Of a stretch of DNA of 64,000 nt, positions 3,354 to 8,972 are shown piece by piece; position 1 is the stretch's first letter, and every line of letters starts with the position of its first letter. This DNA comes from Pseudoxanthomonas sp. PXM02. GTDB lineage: Bacteria > Pseudomonadota > Gammaproteobacteria > Xanthomonadales > Xanthomonadaceae. The notes below the pieces were generated by a model. It searched no databases and had not been told where the DNA came from. It saw nothing but the letters and a program-made list of their open reading frames with translations. The stretch is from positions 930,001-994,000 of the forward strand of contig NZ_JACVAK010000001.1 of NCBI RefSeq assembly GCF_014851805.1. The letters run 5' to 3'. A program made the position numbers and the translations under genes.

Positions 3354-3434
3354 CGGAGCGCCTCACGCGGCATCGGGCCGCCGCGTACGGGATGGATGGG
3401 TCCCAGGAGACCCGTCCCCAAAACTTCATACGAC

Positions 3435-3551
3435 TCAGCCCGGCGAGAAGCCGCGCGTCGCCTTCTTCTCATTCTTGTCCGCGCGCTTTTCCTTCAGCGT
3501 CTTCGCGGGCTTTTTCTTCTGCTCTTTCTTCTTGTCCAGGCCCTTCGCCAT
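3435..3551 (-). CDS. Small lysine-rich protein, 38 residues
   Basis: The reading frame encodes MAKGLDKKKE followed by further KKK and EKK runs and the end RGFSPG. About 40% of residues are Lys or Arg. A GGGAG ribosome-binding site lies 8 bases before the ATG at 3551; an in-frame ATG at 3566 has none. I believe small proteins beginning MAKGLDKKKE recur in Xanthomonadaceae but could not check. The strong charge suggests binding to RNA or another polyanion; no function is known to me. It runs opposite to the lipid operon and converges on it. Confidence 0.6.
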   Translation of the reverse strand: MAKGLDKKKEQKKKPAKTLKEKRADKNEKKATRGFSPG

Positions 3552-3889
3552 CACATGCACTCCCATGGTCGTTGCGACCGCGGCGAGCATGCCACATCCG
3601 CGCACGCCCGGCGTACAGGGCGTCAGGAGGCGGGCCTCACCCGTCCTGCGGCGGGGTCAGGAACTGCTCCGTCGGGCAGGCCCGCGGACGCCACCCCACC
3701 ATGAAGAGCGCAAGTGCAGTCTCGCCTTGAGTTCTCTTCATCAGAAGCCGCTCTTTCTGAAGGGAGTATCTGTTGATGCCCTGGAACCGCTACTCCCTCG
3801 CGGCCGACATGCGCCCGGCGATCTCCTGAGCGACGACGATCGAAGGCATCGACGAACGCTCCGATCTGGAACCCTCTCCGCACCGGGCC
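3552..3889. other. Gene-free stretch
   Basis: No reading frame here has both a ribosome-binding site and a plausible protein composition; the longest, on the minus strand at 3623-3883, is rich in Arg and Gly in the way shadow frames are. I see no repeat, RNA gene or clear hairpin. Confidence 0.5.
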
Positions 3890-4300
3890 CTAAGGCCAGT
3901 TTCCCACGTAGATGTAGTACTCGCGTTCCTTGTTCGTTCCCGGCTCCAGGAATACATACAGATCGCAGAACGGGGGCTCGCTCTCGCGCTTCAGGCCACA
4001 CTCGACAAGACCGCGGCTCTGAAACTCCAGACCCGTCGGAACATTGACCGAAAGCCAATGTTTCTGAAGGCTGACCCGAAAGGTCCTGTCCGCACTGGCA
4101 AGCTTTCTTCCAGGTACGGCAATGATCACCGGGGAGGCTGAAGTGGCGTAAGCCTCGGAAAAGACGAAGGTGGGGCTCATCGGTGTGCCGTGGCCAAGCA
4201 CCTCAAAGGACTTGAACGGCGCGTCGCCGCTCTGGGCCGCGGCAGGAAGGCTGAAGACGAAGAGGATCAACAGGTTCCGCAGGAATCGGGGCACTGGCAT
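3890..4300 (-). CDS. Hypothetical exported protein
   Basis: 136 residues from ATG 4300. The first 24 residues (MPVPRFLRNL then a hydrophobic run ending PAAAQS) form a clear Sec signal peptide, which decides the start; the frame is open further upstream but without a signal. AAGGA sits only two bases before the ATG, an unusually short spacing. The mature part contains two cysteines (VECGLKRE and FCDLYVF), which could form a disulfide, and reads like a small beta-rich periplasmic domain. I do not recognise the family. It is in the same orientation as the lipoprotein gene at 4447-4992, 147 bases downstream of it. Confidence 0.65.
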   Translation of the reverse strand: MPVPRFLRNLLILFVFSLPAAAQSGDAPFKSFEVLGHGTPMSPTFVFSEAYATSASPVIIAVPGRKLASADRTFRVSLQKHWLSVNVPTGLEFQSRGLVECGLKRESEPPFCDLYVFLEPGTNKEREYYIYVGNWP

Positions 4301-4446
4301 CGTCCTTGTGCTGGGAGTGAACGGAACAGCGGGGGTTGCACGAGACATACGCGTCCGGGACATCGGTGACCTGGCTGACGATGCGCTCCGGCGTGTCAGG
4401 GTTCTCGGGTTGAGCGGGCAGGACACGGACGTCACCCGCCGAGTGC

Positions 4447-4992
4447 TTACGTGTCTCCCGGCGTCGATGAGGGCAACACGCTCTGCGACCCTTCAGTCCA
4501 ATCGAGCGGGATGGTGGCCGTTCCGGAATATCGACAGAAGCAGACGGTCGTGGTGGTGATGCAGTCCCCGCCCGACCAGTTGTAGCGGATCTTTCCCGTA
4601 CTGATGGGAGCGAGCTGCGCGGGCCACTTTGTCGACAGGGACTGGGCCAGCGCCTCGATCTTCTTCTTGCACTCCACCATGTACGGGCCGTCCACCGGGA
4701 TCTCGATGCGCTTCTCGCACGACACGCGCAGCTGATCGCCATTGCTACGGAGGGTTTCCATCGACGCAGACTGCGCATCCTCGATACCGCATCCCGGCGC
4801 CCCGGCAGAGCAGGAGGCAGGCCACGTACGGCTGGAAGTCCGTTCGATGTCCCGTTGCCCTGCGCAGGATGCGGCAAGCAGGGAAACGACGAGCAACAGC
4901 CCTGTGCGCAATGCATTTTTCAACGGCACGCTTGCAGGTACACGTGCCGATCCGCGAGGCGACTGTCGCTTGCAGGAACCCCTGGTTCGCAT
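4447..4992 (-). CDS. Hypothetical lipoprotein
   Basis: 181 residues if begun at ATG 4992, which has a good GAGGTG site five bases upstream. A hydrophobic run ends in LAASC (Cys43), a lipobox, but the n-region before it is unusually long (about 28 residues). A GTG at 4929 would give a more normal signal but has no ribosome-binding site. The mature part contains seven or so cysteines (including SCSAGAPGC and CFCRYS), suggesting disulfides. No family recognised. Together with 3890-4300 it may form a two-gene exported-protein unit. Confidence 0.6.
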   Translation of the reverse strand: MRTRGSCKRQSPRGSARVPASVPLKNALRTGLLLVVSLLAASCAGQRDIERTSSRTWPASCSAGAPGCGIEDAQSASMETLRSNGDQLRVSCEKRIEIPVDGPYMVECKKKIEALAQSLSTKWPAQLAPISTGKIRYNWSGGDCITTTTVCFCRYSGTATIPLDWTEGSQSVLPSSTPGDT

Positions 4993-5265
4993 TCCCCACC
5001 TCGATGAGTGAAAGACCTTGTTGCGGACCAACAGCATCGGATGCTGCCTGAAATGCAGACGAACACAGCGTTGTCGATCGTCTCGACGCGGGTGAGGCGT
5101 GGAACACGTCGTTAGACGGATCTCGCCGGAATGGAATGTCCAGACGCTCCTACGTGGCAGGCCATCCCCTTGCTACGAAACGATCTTAGGGTGGCCGGAG
5201 CCAGTCAACAAGCTGACGTGTCCCCCCGTTCGACGGCATGGAATGACCGCTGCCGACTATTCGTC
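4993..5265. other. Gene-free stretch left of the repeat array
   Basis: About 270 bases upstream of the lipoprotein gene at 4447-4992. It must hold that gene's promoter, but I see no convincing -35/-10 pair. No gene, RNA or strong hairpin seen. Confidence 0.5.
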
Positions 5266-5573
5266 GATACGTTGCGCTATGACGCGACACACGTGCGGTA
5301 CTGACCGGCCATACCAAGTGGTATCACCTTCGATACCAACAGGTATCAACGCTGATACCGATGAGTGTCTCCGGTCATGCTTCGGGGAGTGTCGTGTCAT
5401 AAGCACGGGTATCAACGTTCATATCGCGCCCTATGGCGCGTGACATGCAGTGGTATCAACGGCCATGTGATCGATCATGGCGCGACATACGCCGAACACT
5501 CGATCACCACTTCGCAAGACAGGGGCGATGACGTGGTTCGCATGCCAAGGCGACACGAGGCGACCTGACGGGA
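5266..5573. repeat. Degenerate 22-bp tandem periodic array with dyad-symmetric units
   Basis: The sequence GGTATCA occurs at 5320, 5342, 5408 and 5452, spacings of 22, 66 and 44, all multiples of 22. On the opposite arm GATACC occurs at 5332 and 5354, with CATACC at 5310, again 22 apart. Cut into 22-base units from 5266, all 14 units up to 5573 begin with GA or CA. The best units (5310, 5332) read GATACC, four bases, then GGTATCA, so each is an inverted repeat of about 16 bp. Other units (5266, 5420, 5464) share a TATG(A/G)CGCG or CATGGCGCG core instead. The unit length is not a multiple of three and no gene spans it. It lies 230-530 bases upstream of the sensor kinase start. Confidence 0.7.
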
Positions 5574-5798
5574 CCCGTGCCGCCGCATCGCCCGATACCC
5601 GCCGCAGGTCGCCCGACAGGCCCCGCCCCGACACTCACCCGCGTGATGGGCATCGTCCCTGACGGGTCGCGAGATATGCCGGGAAGTCGCCCATGGCAGC
5701 GCAGCACGGCGGCGTTCCGGTAGATTGCGCGCTGGCAGGACACTCGACTGCCACCGGACCTCCGTCGTTCCTACCTCCCCGCTTGGCGGTGACTGTCG
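5574..5798. other. Leader region of the propeller sensor kinase
   Basis: No gene seen. A GATACC occurs at 5594, two bases out of phase with the 22-bp array, so the array may decay into this stretch. No clear promoter hexamers recognised. Confidence 0.4.
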
Positions 5799-8700
5799 AT
5801 GATCGGATCCACCGCACCAAGGGGGCACCGTGCGCTGGCGGGTTGGCTGGCGGCCGTCCTGTCGTGCCTGTCCGCATCGCTGATGGCCACTCCGCTGCCG
5901 GACGGCGGCATCACCACCGAATGGCGGTCCATGACGATGGACGAAGGCGACGACATCGCCTTCAGTCGGGTGGAGAACGCGCAGGACTTCCTTCCAGCGC
6001 GCGTGGGCCAGATCAGCCAGGACGACCAGGGCTTCATGTGGTTCGGCACCCAGTACGGCCTGTACCGCTTCGACGGCTACGGCCACATCGCCTTTGCAGC
6101 GGATGCCCGCGACAGGCACCAGCCCGGCGGCGTTTTCGTCCACGCCATCCACAAGGACAAGGCGGGACGACTCTGGATTTCCACCGACGGCGGCCTGGAC
6201 GTCTTCGATCCCCGCGCGGGCACCTTCCGCCGCGTCCACTACGCGACCACCGCCACCGTGCCGCTGGTCCAGGCGTTCCACGAAGACCCGCAGGGGCTGA
6301 TGTGGCTCGCGACGACGGGCGGGCAGTATGCACTCGATGCGGAAGGCAGGGTGCGCTCGCATGTGCACGCCGATCCTGCCGATCCCGGCGCGCTCGCGAG
6401 CACCGACGTGCGGTTCGCCACGCGCGATCGCGCAGGCATGTTCTGGATCGGGGGCACCGCGGGACTGGAAGCCATCGATCCGACTTCGGGCCGCGTGCGC
6501 ACACGCATCCCGCTGCCGGAACCGCGCGAGATCAGCTTCATCGAAGACCGTGCCGGCGTGCTGTGGATCGCGCATGCCGGCGGCAACGGGCTTTCCTCCT
6601 TCGATCCTTCGACCCGCACGCTCGCGCACTACCGGTTCGTCGACGGCAAGGGCGCGCCTGTTCCGCGCTTCGGCATCTTTTCCGCGCTGCAGGATCGCGA
6701 CGGCGGACTGTGGCTGGGCACGGGCGGTGCCGGCCTGCTGCGGCTGGATGCCGAACAGCGGCGCGTGGTCCGTTACCGCAACAATCCCGGCGATCCGCAG
6801 AGCCTCAGCGGCGATGACGTGGCCGCGCTGTTCCAGGACCGGGACGGCGATGTGTGGGTGGCGCTGCATGGCGAACGGCTCAACCTGTTCTCGCCGCGCA
6901 AGGCGCCCTTCCACAAGCTGCCACCGCGACCGGCGTCCGTTCCCTCCCGCAGCGAGAAGATGGTCAACGCGATCCTGGAGGTGAACGAGCGGACGCTGTG
7001 GATCAGCTACCTGGGCATGCTGCTGGGGGTCGACCGGGCTACCGGGCAACGCGAAGACCTGCACCGCGCGCTGGGCCTGCAGTCGGACGTCATCGCGATG
7101 GCGAAGGATGCGCGCGGGCGGCTCTGGCTGGGCACCGTGGGCACCGGCGTCGTCATGCGCGAACCGTCCGGTCGCCTGACGCACTATCGGCACGACCCGA
7201 CCGATCCGCGCAGCCTGCCGGACGACGTGGTCAACGACATCCTGGTGGACCGGTCGCAGACGCTGTGGTTCGCGACGTGGGGCGGCCTGGCACGACTGGA
7301 CGAACGCACCGGCACCTTCGACACGCACACGCCCAAGGGACTCGACCCGAAGTACCTGACCCTGACCGACGACGGCACTGGAGCGCTCTGGCTGGGCACC
7401 CATCGCTACGGACTGCACCGGTTCGATCCGGTGACGAAGGCGTTCGATGTCTATCCGCCGACGGGTGCGCCGCGCGGCGTCAGCAACGGCCGCATCAACG
7501 CGGTGCATGTGGACCGACGTGGCACGGTGTGGGTGGGCACGCAGAACGGCCTGGACAGACTGGACCCCGCCACGGGACGGATACACGGCTACCACGCGCA
7601 GGATGGTCTGCCAGGAAACGCGGTGAGCTGCCTGCTCGAAGACGCGCGCGGTGGCCTGTGGCTGGGCACCAACAACGGCATCGCGCGACGGGACGCCGCG
7701 AGCGGGAAGATGCAGGGTTACTCGCGCAGCGATGGACTGCCGGGCGTGGATTTCACCGGCTGGGGTACGTGCCACCGCGGTGCGAGCGGCACGATGTACT
7801 TCGGTGGTTTCTCGGGAGGCACGGCGTTCCTGCCGGACCAGGTGCGCGCGCAGGGACAGGTGCCCTCCGTGGCGCTGACGGACCTGACGGTCGCCGGCCG
7901 CAGGTTTTCTGCCGGCACGACGGCTGCGCAGCCGCAGGTGCTGCCGGTGCCGGAGGCGCTGGCGTTGCCGTACTCGCGGAACTCGTTCACCGCCGGCTTC
8001 GCGGCGTTGCGTTACGCCAATCCTTCCGCGATCGACTACCGCTTCCGCCTGGCGGGACTGGAAAAGGACTGGCACGTGGTCGGCAGCGACCGGCGCGTGG
8101 CCGCGTACAACTCGCTACCGCCCGGGGATTACCGGCTGGACGTGCAGGCCTCCGTCGGCGGAGGCGACTGGTCCGACAGCACGTCGCTGGCACTGACGAT
8201 CCTGCGCCCGTGGTGGCAGGCCATGTGGTTCCATCTGCTGGTCGGACTGCTGTTGGTCGGCGCGGTGTTGCTCGCCTACCGGTTGCGCGTTCGGCAGGTG
8301 ATGCAGCGTTTCGAGATACGCCTGGACGAACGCGTGGCCGAGCGCACGCGGATCGCGCGCGAGTTGCACGACTCCCTGCTGCAGGGTTTCCACGGCCTGA
8401 TGTTCCGGCTGCAAGCGGTACGCAACCTGCTCCCCGCACGTCCCGATGACGCCGCCGCGGTGCTGGACGAAGCCTTGCGACGCGGCGACGACACCGTGGC
8501 GATGGCGCGCGAGGCCGTGACCGACCTGCGCACGTTCGGCACCGGCACCCTGGATCTGGAAGCGGCGCTGCGGATGATGGTGGACGACGTGGCCGCGCCT
8601 TACCGCGACGATCCGCCCGAATGCCGCATCACCGTGGAAGGGACACCCCACCCGATGATTCCGCTCGTGCGCGACGACGTGCTGCAGATCGCGCGCGAAG

Positions 8701-8972
8701 CGGTGCGCAATGCGTTGCAGCACGCGCAGGCGAAACGGGTACGGGTGGAGGTGCAGTGGGGCGCGCAGCGGTTCGTCCTGCGCGTGCAGGACGACGGTGT
8801 CGGCCTGGACCCGGGGTTCGCCGAACACGGTCGCGATGGCCACTGGGGCCTGCATGGCATGCGCGAACGGACCCGCGACGTGGGCGGCAGCCTGGAGATC
8901 CGCAGCGAGGGCACCGGCACGCAGGTGGAACTGGGAATTCCCGCCAACCGCGCCTACGTGCGCGCCGGCTGA
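5799..8972 (+). CDS. Beta-propeller sensor histidine kinase (Reg_prop / Y_Y_Y / HisKA_3)
   Basis: 1057 residues. A hydrophobic signal or anchor near residues 12-30 is followed by about 700 residues of periplasmic two-component-regulator propeller repeats (recurring LWxGTxxGLxRFDP patterns such as GGLWLGTNNGIARRD), then a Y_Y_Y domain. A membrane segment at about 808-828 leads to a cytoplasmic HisKA_3 domain with the phospho-acceptor His857 in ELHDSLLQGFHG, and an ATPase domain with DDGVG and WGLHGM. Such kinases usually sense extracellular carbohydrates or other large ligands and signal to NarL-type regulators. A NarL-type regulator lies immediately downstream on the opposite strand (8985-9614), the likely partner. 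The 22-bp array lies upstream. Confidence 0.92.
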   Translation: MIGSTAPRGHRALAGWLAAVLSCLSASLMATPLPDGGITTEWRSMTMDEGDDIAFSRVENAQDFLPARVGQISQDDQGFMWFGTQYGLYRFDGYGHIAFAADARDRHQPGGVFVHAIHKDKAGRLWISTDGGLDVFDPRAGTFRRVHYATTATVPLVQAFHEDPQGLMWLATTGGQYALDAEGRVRSHVHADPADPGALASTDVRFATRDRAGMFWIGGTAGLEAIDPTSGRVRTRIPLPEPREISFIEDRAGVLWIAHAGGNGLSSFDPSTRTLAHYRFVDGKGAPVPRFGIFSALQDRDGGLWLGTGGAGLLRLDAEQRRVVRYRNNPGDPQSLSGDDVAALFQDRDGDVWVALHGERLNLFSPRKAPFHKLPPRPASVPSRSEKMVNAILEVNERTLWISYLGMLLGVDRATGQREDLHRALGLQSDVIAMAKDARGRLWLGTVGTGVVMREPSGRLTHYRHDPTDPRSLPDDVVNDILVDRSQTLWFATWGGLARLDERTGTFDTHTPKGLDPKYLTLTDDGTGALWLGTHRYGLHRFDPVTKAFDVYPPTGAPRGVSNGRINAVHVDRRGTVWVGTQNGLDRLDPATGRIHGYHAQDGLPGNAVSCLLEDARGGLWLGTNNGIARRDAASGKMQGYSRSDGLPGVDFTGWGTCHRGASGTMYFGGFSGGTAFLPDQVRAQGQVPSVALTDLTVAGRRFSAGTTAAQPQVLPVPEALALPYSRNSFTAGFAALRYANPSAIDYRFRLAGLEKDWHVVGSDRRVAAYNSLPPGDYRLDVQASVGGGDWSDSTSLALTILRPWWQAMWFHLLVGLLLVGAVLLAYRLRVRQVMQRFEIRLDERVAERTRIARELHDSLLQGFHGLMFRLQAVRNLLPARPDDAAAVLDEALRRGDDTVAMAREAVTDLRTFGTGTLDLEAALRMMVDDVAAPYRDDPPECRITVEGTPHPMIPLVRDDVLQIAREAVRNALQHAQAKRVRVEVQWGAQRFVLRVQDDGVGLDPGFAEHGRDGHWGLHGMRERTRDVGGSLEIRSEGTGTQVELGIPANRAYVRAG

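Follow-up and report, generated by a model that had tools for sequence, protein, structure and literature searches.

What kind of element is the degenerate 22-bp repeat that lies upstream of a sensor kinase gene in Pseudoxanthomonas sp. PXM02? The window analyzed here, a stretch of 64,000 nucleotides from this genome, holds the repeat between a short hypothetical gene and a large propeller sensor kinase gene (5799..8972, plus strand; Reg_prop, Y_Y_Y, HisKA_3, and HATPase_c by Pfam), which is not tied to the element. We give close to an even chance to the reading that the repeat is a half-decayed copy of a dispersed, noncoding cis-element of fixed size, a cooperative array for a dimeric protein that may silence or insulate the gene junction in which it sits.

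The periodic array and its relatives

The 22-bp periodicity of positions 5266-5573 is far above chance. Autocorrelation of 5200-5600 gave z = 5.9, 6.9, 5.1, 6.5, and 5.6 at lags 22, 44, 66, 88, and 110, peaks that none of 400 dinucleotide-preserving shuffles matched at any lag up to 120; over 4900-5800, the region for which the preliminary description had proposed the analysis, lag 22 gave z = 4.5, with a family-wise p of 0.0025. Weaker peaks were seen at lag 10 (z 3.6, 5266-5573) and lag 12 (z 4.2, 5300-5480) and none within the array at lag 11, a pattern that fits half-sites alternating in orientation. Tandem Repeats Finder called only 5311-5359 in this region, so the array is too degenerate for that tool. 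The motif positions reported earlier are all correct, with GGTATCA at 5320, 5342, 5408, and 5452 and CATACC or GATACC at 5310, 5332, and 5354, and GA or CA opens 14 of 14 units counted from 5266.

A BLASTN search with the array against 60 relatives and the window's own genome gave matches in 4 of the 61 and brought in further 22-bp arrays, one of them at another spot of the window's own genome; two other matches (L003 and L005) hold no 22-bp array. A three-unit profile was made from 18 segments and then searched against the genus genomes. This search picked up two arrays in the window's own genome and gave matches for 7 of the 38 genus genomes, six of which are true carriers; a match in G025 (E 0.0016) proved false and was dropped after inspection of the locus and array scoring. 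The array score is binary: on the better strand, 19 of 89 scanned loci scored 87.8 to 163.3, and the other 70 scored -11.8 or lower. The 19 high-scoring loci correspond to ten copies, nine of which had been fetched twice. These ten copies, in 6 of 38 genus genomes, are distributed as two each in G000 (the window's own genome), G023, G027, and G029, and one each in G019 and G020.

By synteny the copies fall into five places, with different immediate neighbors at each: locus A (G029, G027, G020, and G023), locus B (G000, G029, and G027), place C (G019), place D (the second place in G023), and the window. The places are not fully separate, in that locus A of G029 shares small genes with the neighborhoods of C and D. 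Two small adjoining genes (L061 3091-3390 and 3502-3921) lie ∼6 kb from the G029 locus-A copy, and relatives of them are found near other copies (L065 6653-6916 and L068 9294-9713); one of the two has a relative 3 kb from the G019 copy at place C (79% DNA identity), and the other a relative directly beside the second G023 copy at place D (82%). An older common neighborhood may lie behind places A, C, and D. On a single-gene tree that took in 28 of the 38 genus genomes the carriers are scattered, G019 falling among noncarriers and G000, with poor support, likewise.

The profile gave no match beyond the genus. At E ≤ 1e-5 it hit 5 of 297 family genomes, each of them a member of the genus, and in a set of 369 class genomes it hit the window's own alone; an exact pattern matched 4 of 395 family genomes; the family and class scans used stricter filters and a genus-trained model that diverged relatives could escape, and the strict exact pattern misses even the carriers G019 and G020. 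The intact G027 locus-A copy had no BLASTN match in 72,556 plasmid and 50,697 phage records. An exact-pattern scan of genome contigs, which may omit near relatives, returned nine stretches and no array of this kind; a slightly shorter version of the pattern matches only some of the known copies. Five of the nine belong to another short 22-bp spaced palindrome element, of the TTTATCACGCGTGATAAA type, present in at least five copies in one Bacteroidales genome (L010, L012, L013, L014, and L016). Among viral contigs the first exact pattern gave 0 matches and a second gave two, neither of them an array. Viral contig L214 carries ATACC-N4-GGTAT dyads 22 bp apart at 3570-3912, with more copies reaching a small gene with a weak HTH match, and L215 carries a similar dyad pair at 6363-6398, with no regulator gene recognized alongside. 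A search of the open-access literature, from which most subscription journals are absent, turned up no account of such an element.

Unit layout and the window copy

The consensus unit is S-ATACC-NNNN-GGTAT-S-NCGCGN, 22 bp in length, with one dyad centered in NNNN and a second, 11 bp off, in CGCG. An alignment of nine copies runs over 14 units (308 bp) in a single orientation, each unit with its own sequence; the tenth copy, at locus B of G027 (G027b), which has lost one unit and carries a 1-bp indel, was excluded from this alignment and from the profile. Almost everywhere, units 5, 11, and 12 form strong palindromes, and unit 13 has its own ACC-R-CGC motif at most places. For each of the eight copies other than that in the window, offset 0 gave the best alignment to the rest and displacement by one or two units was clearly worse; mean identities, which include orthologous pairs, were 0.555 to 0.645 at offset 0 and 0.455 to 0.515 at the next best offsets. 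The order of units is common to places A, B, C, and D, since 21 of 21 cross-place pairs, the window excluded, beat shuffled order (z 2.5 to 4.5, p 0.011 or less). Outside units 1 to 14 there is no in-register similarity between places, save for a weak half unit ahead of unit 1. The four copies at locus A align without gaps. At locus B, G027b alone has gaps: one equals a unit exactly in length (22 bp), and the other, of 1 bp, breaks the register and counts against our main reading.

The window copy was placed with a profile derived from the eight remaining copies of the alignment, the window copy itself being left out. The profile scored 72.5 bits at 5259-5566 on the minus strand, compared with 36.4 in the next register and -109.5 at the best position elsewhere in the window. 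The whole element, 14 units and 308 bp, therefore spans 5259..5566 (minus strand), with unit 14 at 5259-5280 and unit 1 at 5545-5566. The count of 14 in the preliminary description stands, and its frame, which began at 5266, shifts by 7 bp to the one that best fits the relatives. Judged by the unit consensus, the two interleaved site types suggested there are not supported: units with the TATGGCGCG core are of the ordinary kind, but their palindrome is weak and they had been read across the second dyad.

On these alignments the window copy is half decayed. A profile of units 8 to 14 scored 93.6 at 5259..5412 (minus strand), compared with 55.3 in the next register and -38.8 at best elsewhere, and this well-kept half includes the strong units 11 (5325..5346; ATACCTGTTGGTATC...) and 12 (5303..5324; ATACCACTTGGTATG...), each with an identity of 0.70 to other places in the nine-copy alignment, as well as unit 13 (5281..5302; identity 0.66), in which a unit-specific ACCGC replaces the usual core. 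Units 1 to 7 (5413..5566, minus strand) are regarded as decayed because their identity to other places is only 0.30 to 0.49; the profile of units 1 to 7 gave its best score in a different register of the window copy. The window copy lacks the strong unit 5 of the other places: at this unit its identity to them is 0.38, compared with 0.72 among the other places. In the unit-order test only two of its eight pairwise comparisons beat shuffled order at p < 0.05, and the comparison with the second copy in the same genome was worse than shuffled order (z -0.4). The placement of the window copy rests on the profile and on units 11 to 13.

We also compared rates of change within the element. The six core positions, ATA/TAT, changed less than the rest in six of nine orthologue comparisons at p < 0.05 (lowest 8.6e-6), although these comparisons overlap and are not independent, and the test is confounded with base composition, the cores being A/T and the remainder mostly G/C. 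The effect was not significant for G029a-G027a (p 0.069), G029b-G027b (0.54), or G020-G023a (0.55). As a whole the element is no slower than fourfold sites, whether in G029a/G027a (0.932 versus 0.89 to 0.92) or in G020/G023a (0.750 versus 0.87). As judged from the copies compared, then, the layout is maintained while most bases drift. The recurrence of the 14-unit count elsewhere and the conservation of the cores in distant orthologues bear out the earlier suggestion of dyad-symmetric 22-bp units that lie on one face of the DNA, as might be expected of cooperative binding.

Candidate function and competing readings

How could such an array work? Each unit is a dyad (S-ATACC-NNNN-GGTAT-S), and the next dyad follows two helical turns on, so that equivalent contacts would be presented on one face of the DNA. 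We propose that the array would be occupied by a dimeric DNA-binding protein whose gene lies at another site in the genome. Binding would begin at the strong units 5, 11, and 12 and extend cooperatively to the weaker ones, and a nucleoprotein filament or wrap with a set length would form. The most likely effect would be silencing or insulation of the gene junction that hosts the element; the copies examined sit at junctions that vary between relatives. We would place silencing or insulation first among the possible roles, spread by a recombinase second, and a centromere-like role third. A broader formulation is more tentative. The element might be a stand-alone, gene-free protein-assembly site of fixed length, with 28 alternating half-sites in 308 bp, which serves as an insulator, an anchor, or a centromere-like site and moves between variable junctions, at least one of them a hot spot for antiphage defense genes. 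With the same degree of doubt, this would make it a new class of chromosomal element.

The neighborhoods were surveyed for a companion gene. A comparison of 179 proteins, predicted from the DNA up to ∼10 kb away from the ten copies, yielded eight cross-place pairs, and no protein family was present at four or all five of the places; the proteins came from simple ORF calling, which overlooked at least one real gene. The neighbors are a 203-aa protein of unknown family at locus A, a YbjQ/DUF4259 cluster at locus B, a glucokinase-like gene in G019, and a TonB receptor at the second G023 copy, the last two named from their translations. Neither the neighboring genes nor the orientation of the element toward them recurs between places, which weakens the case for a shared regulatory role.

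The copies tend to coincide with breaks in synteny, at locus A, in G019, and in the window. To the left of the locus-A element, three different neighborhoods were found across four genomes. In the window, DNA similarity to the relative G008 reaches 93 bp upstream of the kinase start and ends 140 bp before the element; the promoter-proximal stretch of the kinase (5706..5798, plus strand) is conserved by BLASTN in G008, which lacks the array, and lies outside the element. Beyond the 203-aa gene at locus A, each genome carries a different defense-like cargo within ∼5 kb (L063, L067, L066, and L061): a type VI retron RT with an HTH protein in G027, LmuB/LmuC-like proteins in G023, an AbiJ_NTD4/PDC-S32 protein in G020, and, by a weak match, a SieB-like protein in G029. 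The interval looks like a defense hot spot. The 164- to 203-aa family to which this gene belongs (L061 10086-10697 and relatives) occurs in 21 of 38 genus genomes, with up to five matches per genome, and had no match in Pfam, NCBIfam, or PADLOC. A gene comes after the element in G000 and G027; on the unit-1 side at L062, G029 seems to keep only a remnant of its start, and this remnant had no protein match.

Short transposon derivatives can be spread by a full-length relative, and the array could by analogy be the binding site of a transposase or recombinase whose gene lies at another locus and which spreads a fixed 308-bp unit. Such a nonautonomous mobile element would account for the constant length, for the same sequence at five places with no in-register similarity past the outer units, for the patchy presence on the tree of 28 of the 38 genomes, with the carrier G019 inside a noncarrier clade, and for the copies at synteny breaks. 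We nevertheless consider it unlikely. Neither terminal inverted repeats nor target duplications were recognized, in a comparison that had no clean empty site: relatives hold other small genes at the YbjQ locus, and at the G019 place they share no upstream similarity past the glucokinase-proximal stretch. There are never more than two copies per genome in the six carriers, no pair of copies in one genome resembles recent duplicates, and the small gene common to A, C, and D, some kilobases off, means that fewer moves may suffice.

A site of the centromere or plasmid-origin type (ParR/parC, SopB/sopC, or iteron), left behind or still used by an integrated replicon, is rather improbable. The contiguous tandem repeats, 14 × 22 bp, do have a length near that of known systems and would suit such a site. 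However, no Rep, ParM, or ParR family was found by Pfam in 24 neighboring proteins, a set that excludes the neighbors of G019 and of the second G023 copy; no gene family recurs beside all places; and the intact copy is unmatched in the plasmid and phage collections. Nor do the three of ten copies that could be placed by GC skew lie near a switch: the 1.84-Mb contig bearing both G000 copies has no GC-skew switch sampled, and the G023 C4 copy lies ∼0.5 Mb from one. A link to the replication origin or terminus was likewise set aside, as the GC skew of these three copies gives it no support. The dif core pattern, with up to two mismatches, was present in one of ten genus genomes, a noncarrier, and absent from G000, G019, G020, G023, G027, G029, G008, G014, and G015.

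The preliminary description had also offered an old minisatellite as an alternative. The degenerate units, the half-decayed window copy, and a divergence at or above that of silent sites are what neutral decay would give. Tandem arrays normally vary in copy number, however, and here 14 units are found in nine of nine aligned copies, with G027b, outside the alignment, one unit short; the cores, too, are conserved in distant pairs. Because unit number, order, and register are kept at different places, we regard a purely neutral origin as quite unlikely.

Could the array instead be transcribed as a structured RNA, a chain of hairpins? Single arrays folded with far lower energies than shuffled sequence on either strand, in five of five tried, but this is expected of any array of palindromes. 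The nine-copy consensus fold gave -39.1 versus -16.4 ± 5.6 on one strand and -30.8 versus -11.0 ± 4.1 on the other, relative to phase-kept column shuffles. The covariation term was better than column shuffles on the plus strand (-3.8 versus -1.4 ± 1.0) but no better than shuffled on the minus strand. Excess complementarity was found at unit positions 7-8 (z 3.4) and 0-15 (z 3.0), weakly at 4-11 (z 2.1), and also at 18-19, 7-8 and 18-19 being the dyad centers; the remaining symmetric pairs of the unit core showed no significant excess over shuffled columns. Mismatches favor no RNA strand consistently, with 106 G-T versus 82 A-C over pairs 1-14 to 7-8 and opposite signs at neighboring pairs. Since the shuffles split the near-identical strong units, which alone could account for the energy gap, we hold an RNA to be very unlikely. 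Rfam gave no match in 3400-6200. A repeat protein is rejected: the copies share no common reading frame, every frame being stopped in at least five of nine. Since neither consistent compensatory pairing nor a shared frame was seen, and no companion gene was found within ∼10 kb, the element probably functions at the DNA level and offers a cooperative array of sites to a dimeric protein whose gene lies at another locus.

That the array is an operator for the adjoining sensor kinase, as had been suggested, is scarcely credible: its end lies 233 bp above the kinase start, but the array is absent around the kinase orthologues (taken at E ≤ 1e-200) of G008 (82% identical) and G026 (65%), and the other copies adjoin different genes. 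Retention of the flanking genes without the array, which the preliminary description had named as evidence against its own proposal, is thus seen on the kinase side only; the upstream gene in G008 differs from that in the window.

Comparison with known systems

Type II partition centromeres are one of the closest known systems. In ParR/parC of pSK41 and R1, tandem repeats are bound by many dimers, and the DNA of parC wraps around a superhelix of ParR (PMC5016525). The likeness lies in the tandem repeats. The element differs in its 22-bp unit with two dyad axes and in its location on chromosomal contigs, in one or two copies, and no ParM or ParR was found among the neighbors scanned. The earlier term "iteron-like" is apt as an analogy only. 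In R6K and pPS10 the iterons are as long as 22 bp and are bound by one protein, and R6K has seven of them (PMC4980987). The element, in contrast, has 14 units, and these are dyads, whereas iterons are bound by Rep monomers; no Rep gene was found among the neighbors scanned.

Paired operators of the phage type offer what appears to be a weak analogy. Viral contig L214 has the same dyad, ATACC-N4-GGTAT, twice at a spacing of exactly 22 bp; a small gene ∼340 bp away shows a weak match, below Pfam cutoffs, to a Cro/C1-type HTH. The element has 14 contiguous units rather than two adjacent sites, no such gene was found beside it, and the host type of L214 differs (GC 0.45). Lrp/FFRP sites are likewise dyads about two helical turns apart that support cooperative wrapping; the present array is far longer and has unit-specific sequence, and no Lrp gene was identified. 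REP/BIME sequences and short nonautonomous transposons are also short, dispersed, intergenic palindromic DNA, but the element occurs in one or two copies per genome, as 14 contiguous degenerate units with no recognized termini. Binding sites in long, helically phased arrays are familiar chiefly from the origins and centromeres of plasmids, where the gene for the protein is adjacent. The present array keeps its length and internal layout at several places on the chromosome, and no companion gene was found in its vicinity; should it be a site of protein assembly, the bound protein would reveal what use the chromosome makes of a 308-bp filament at variable junctions.
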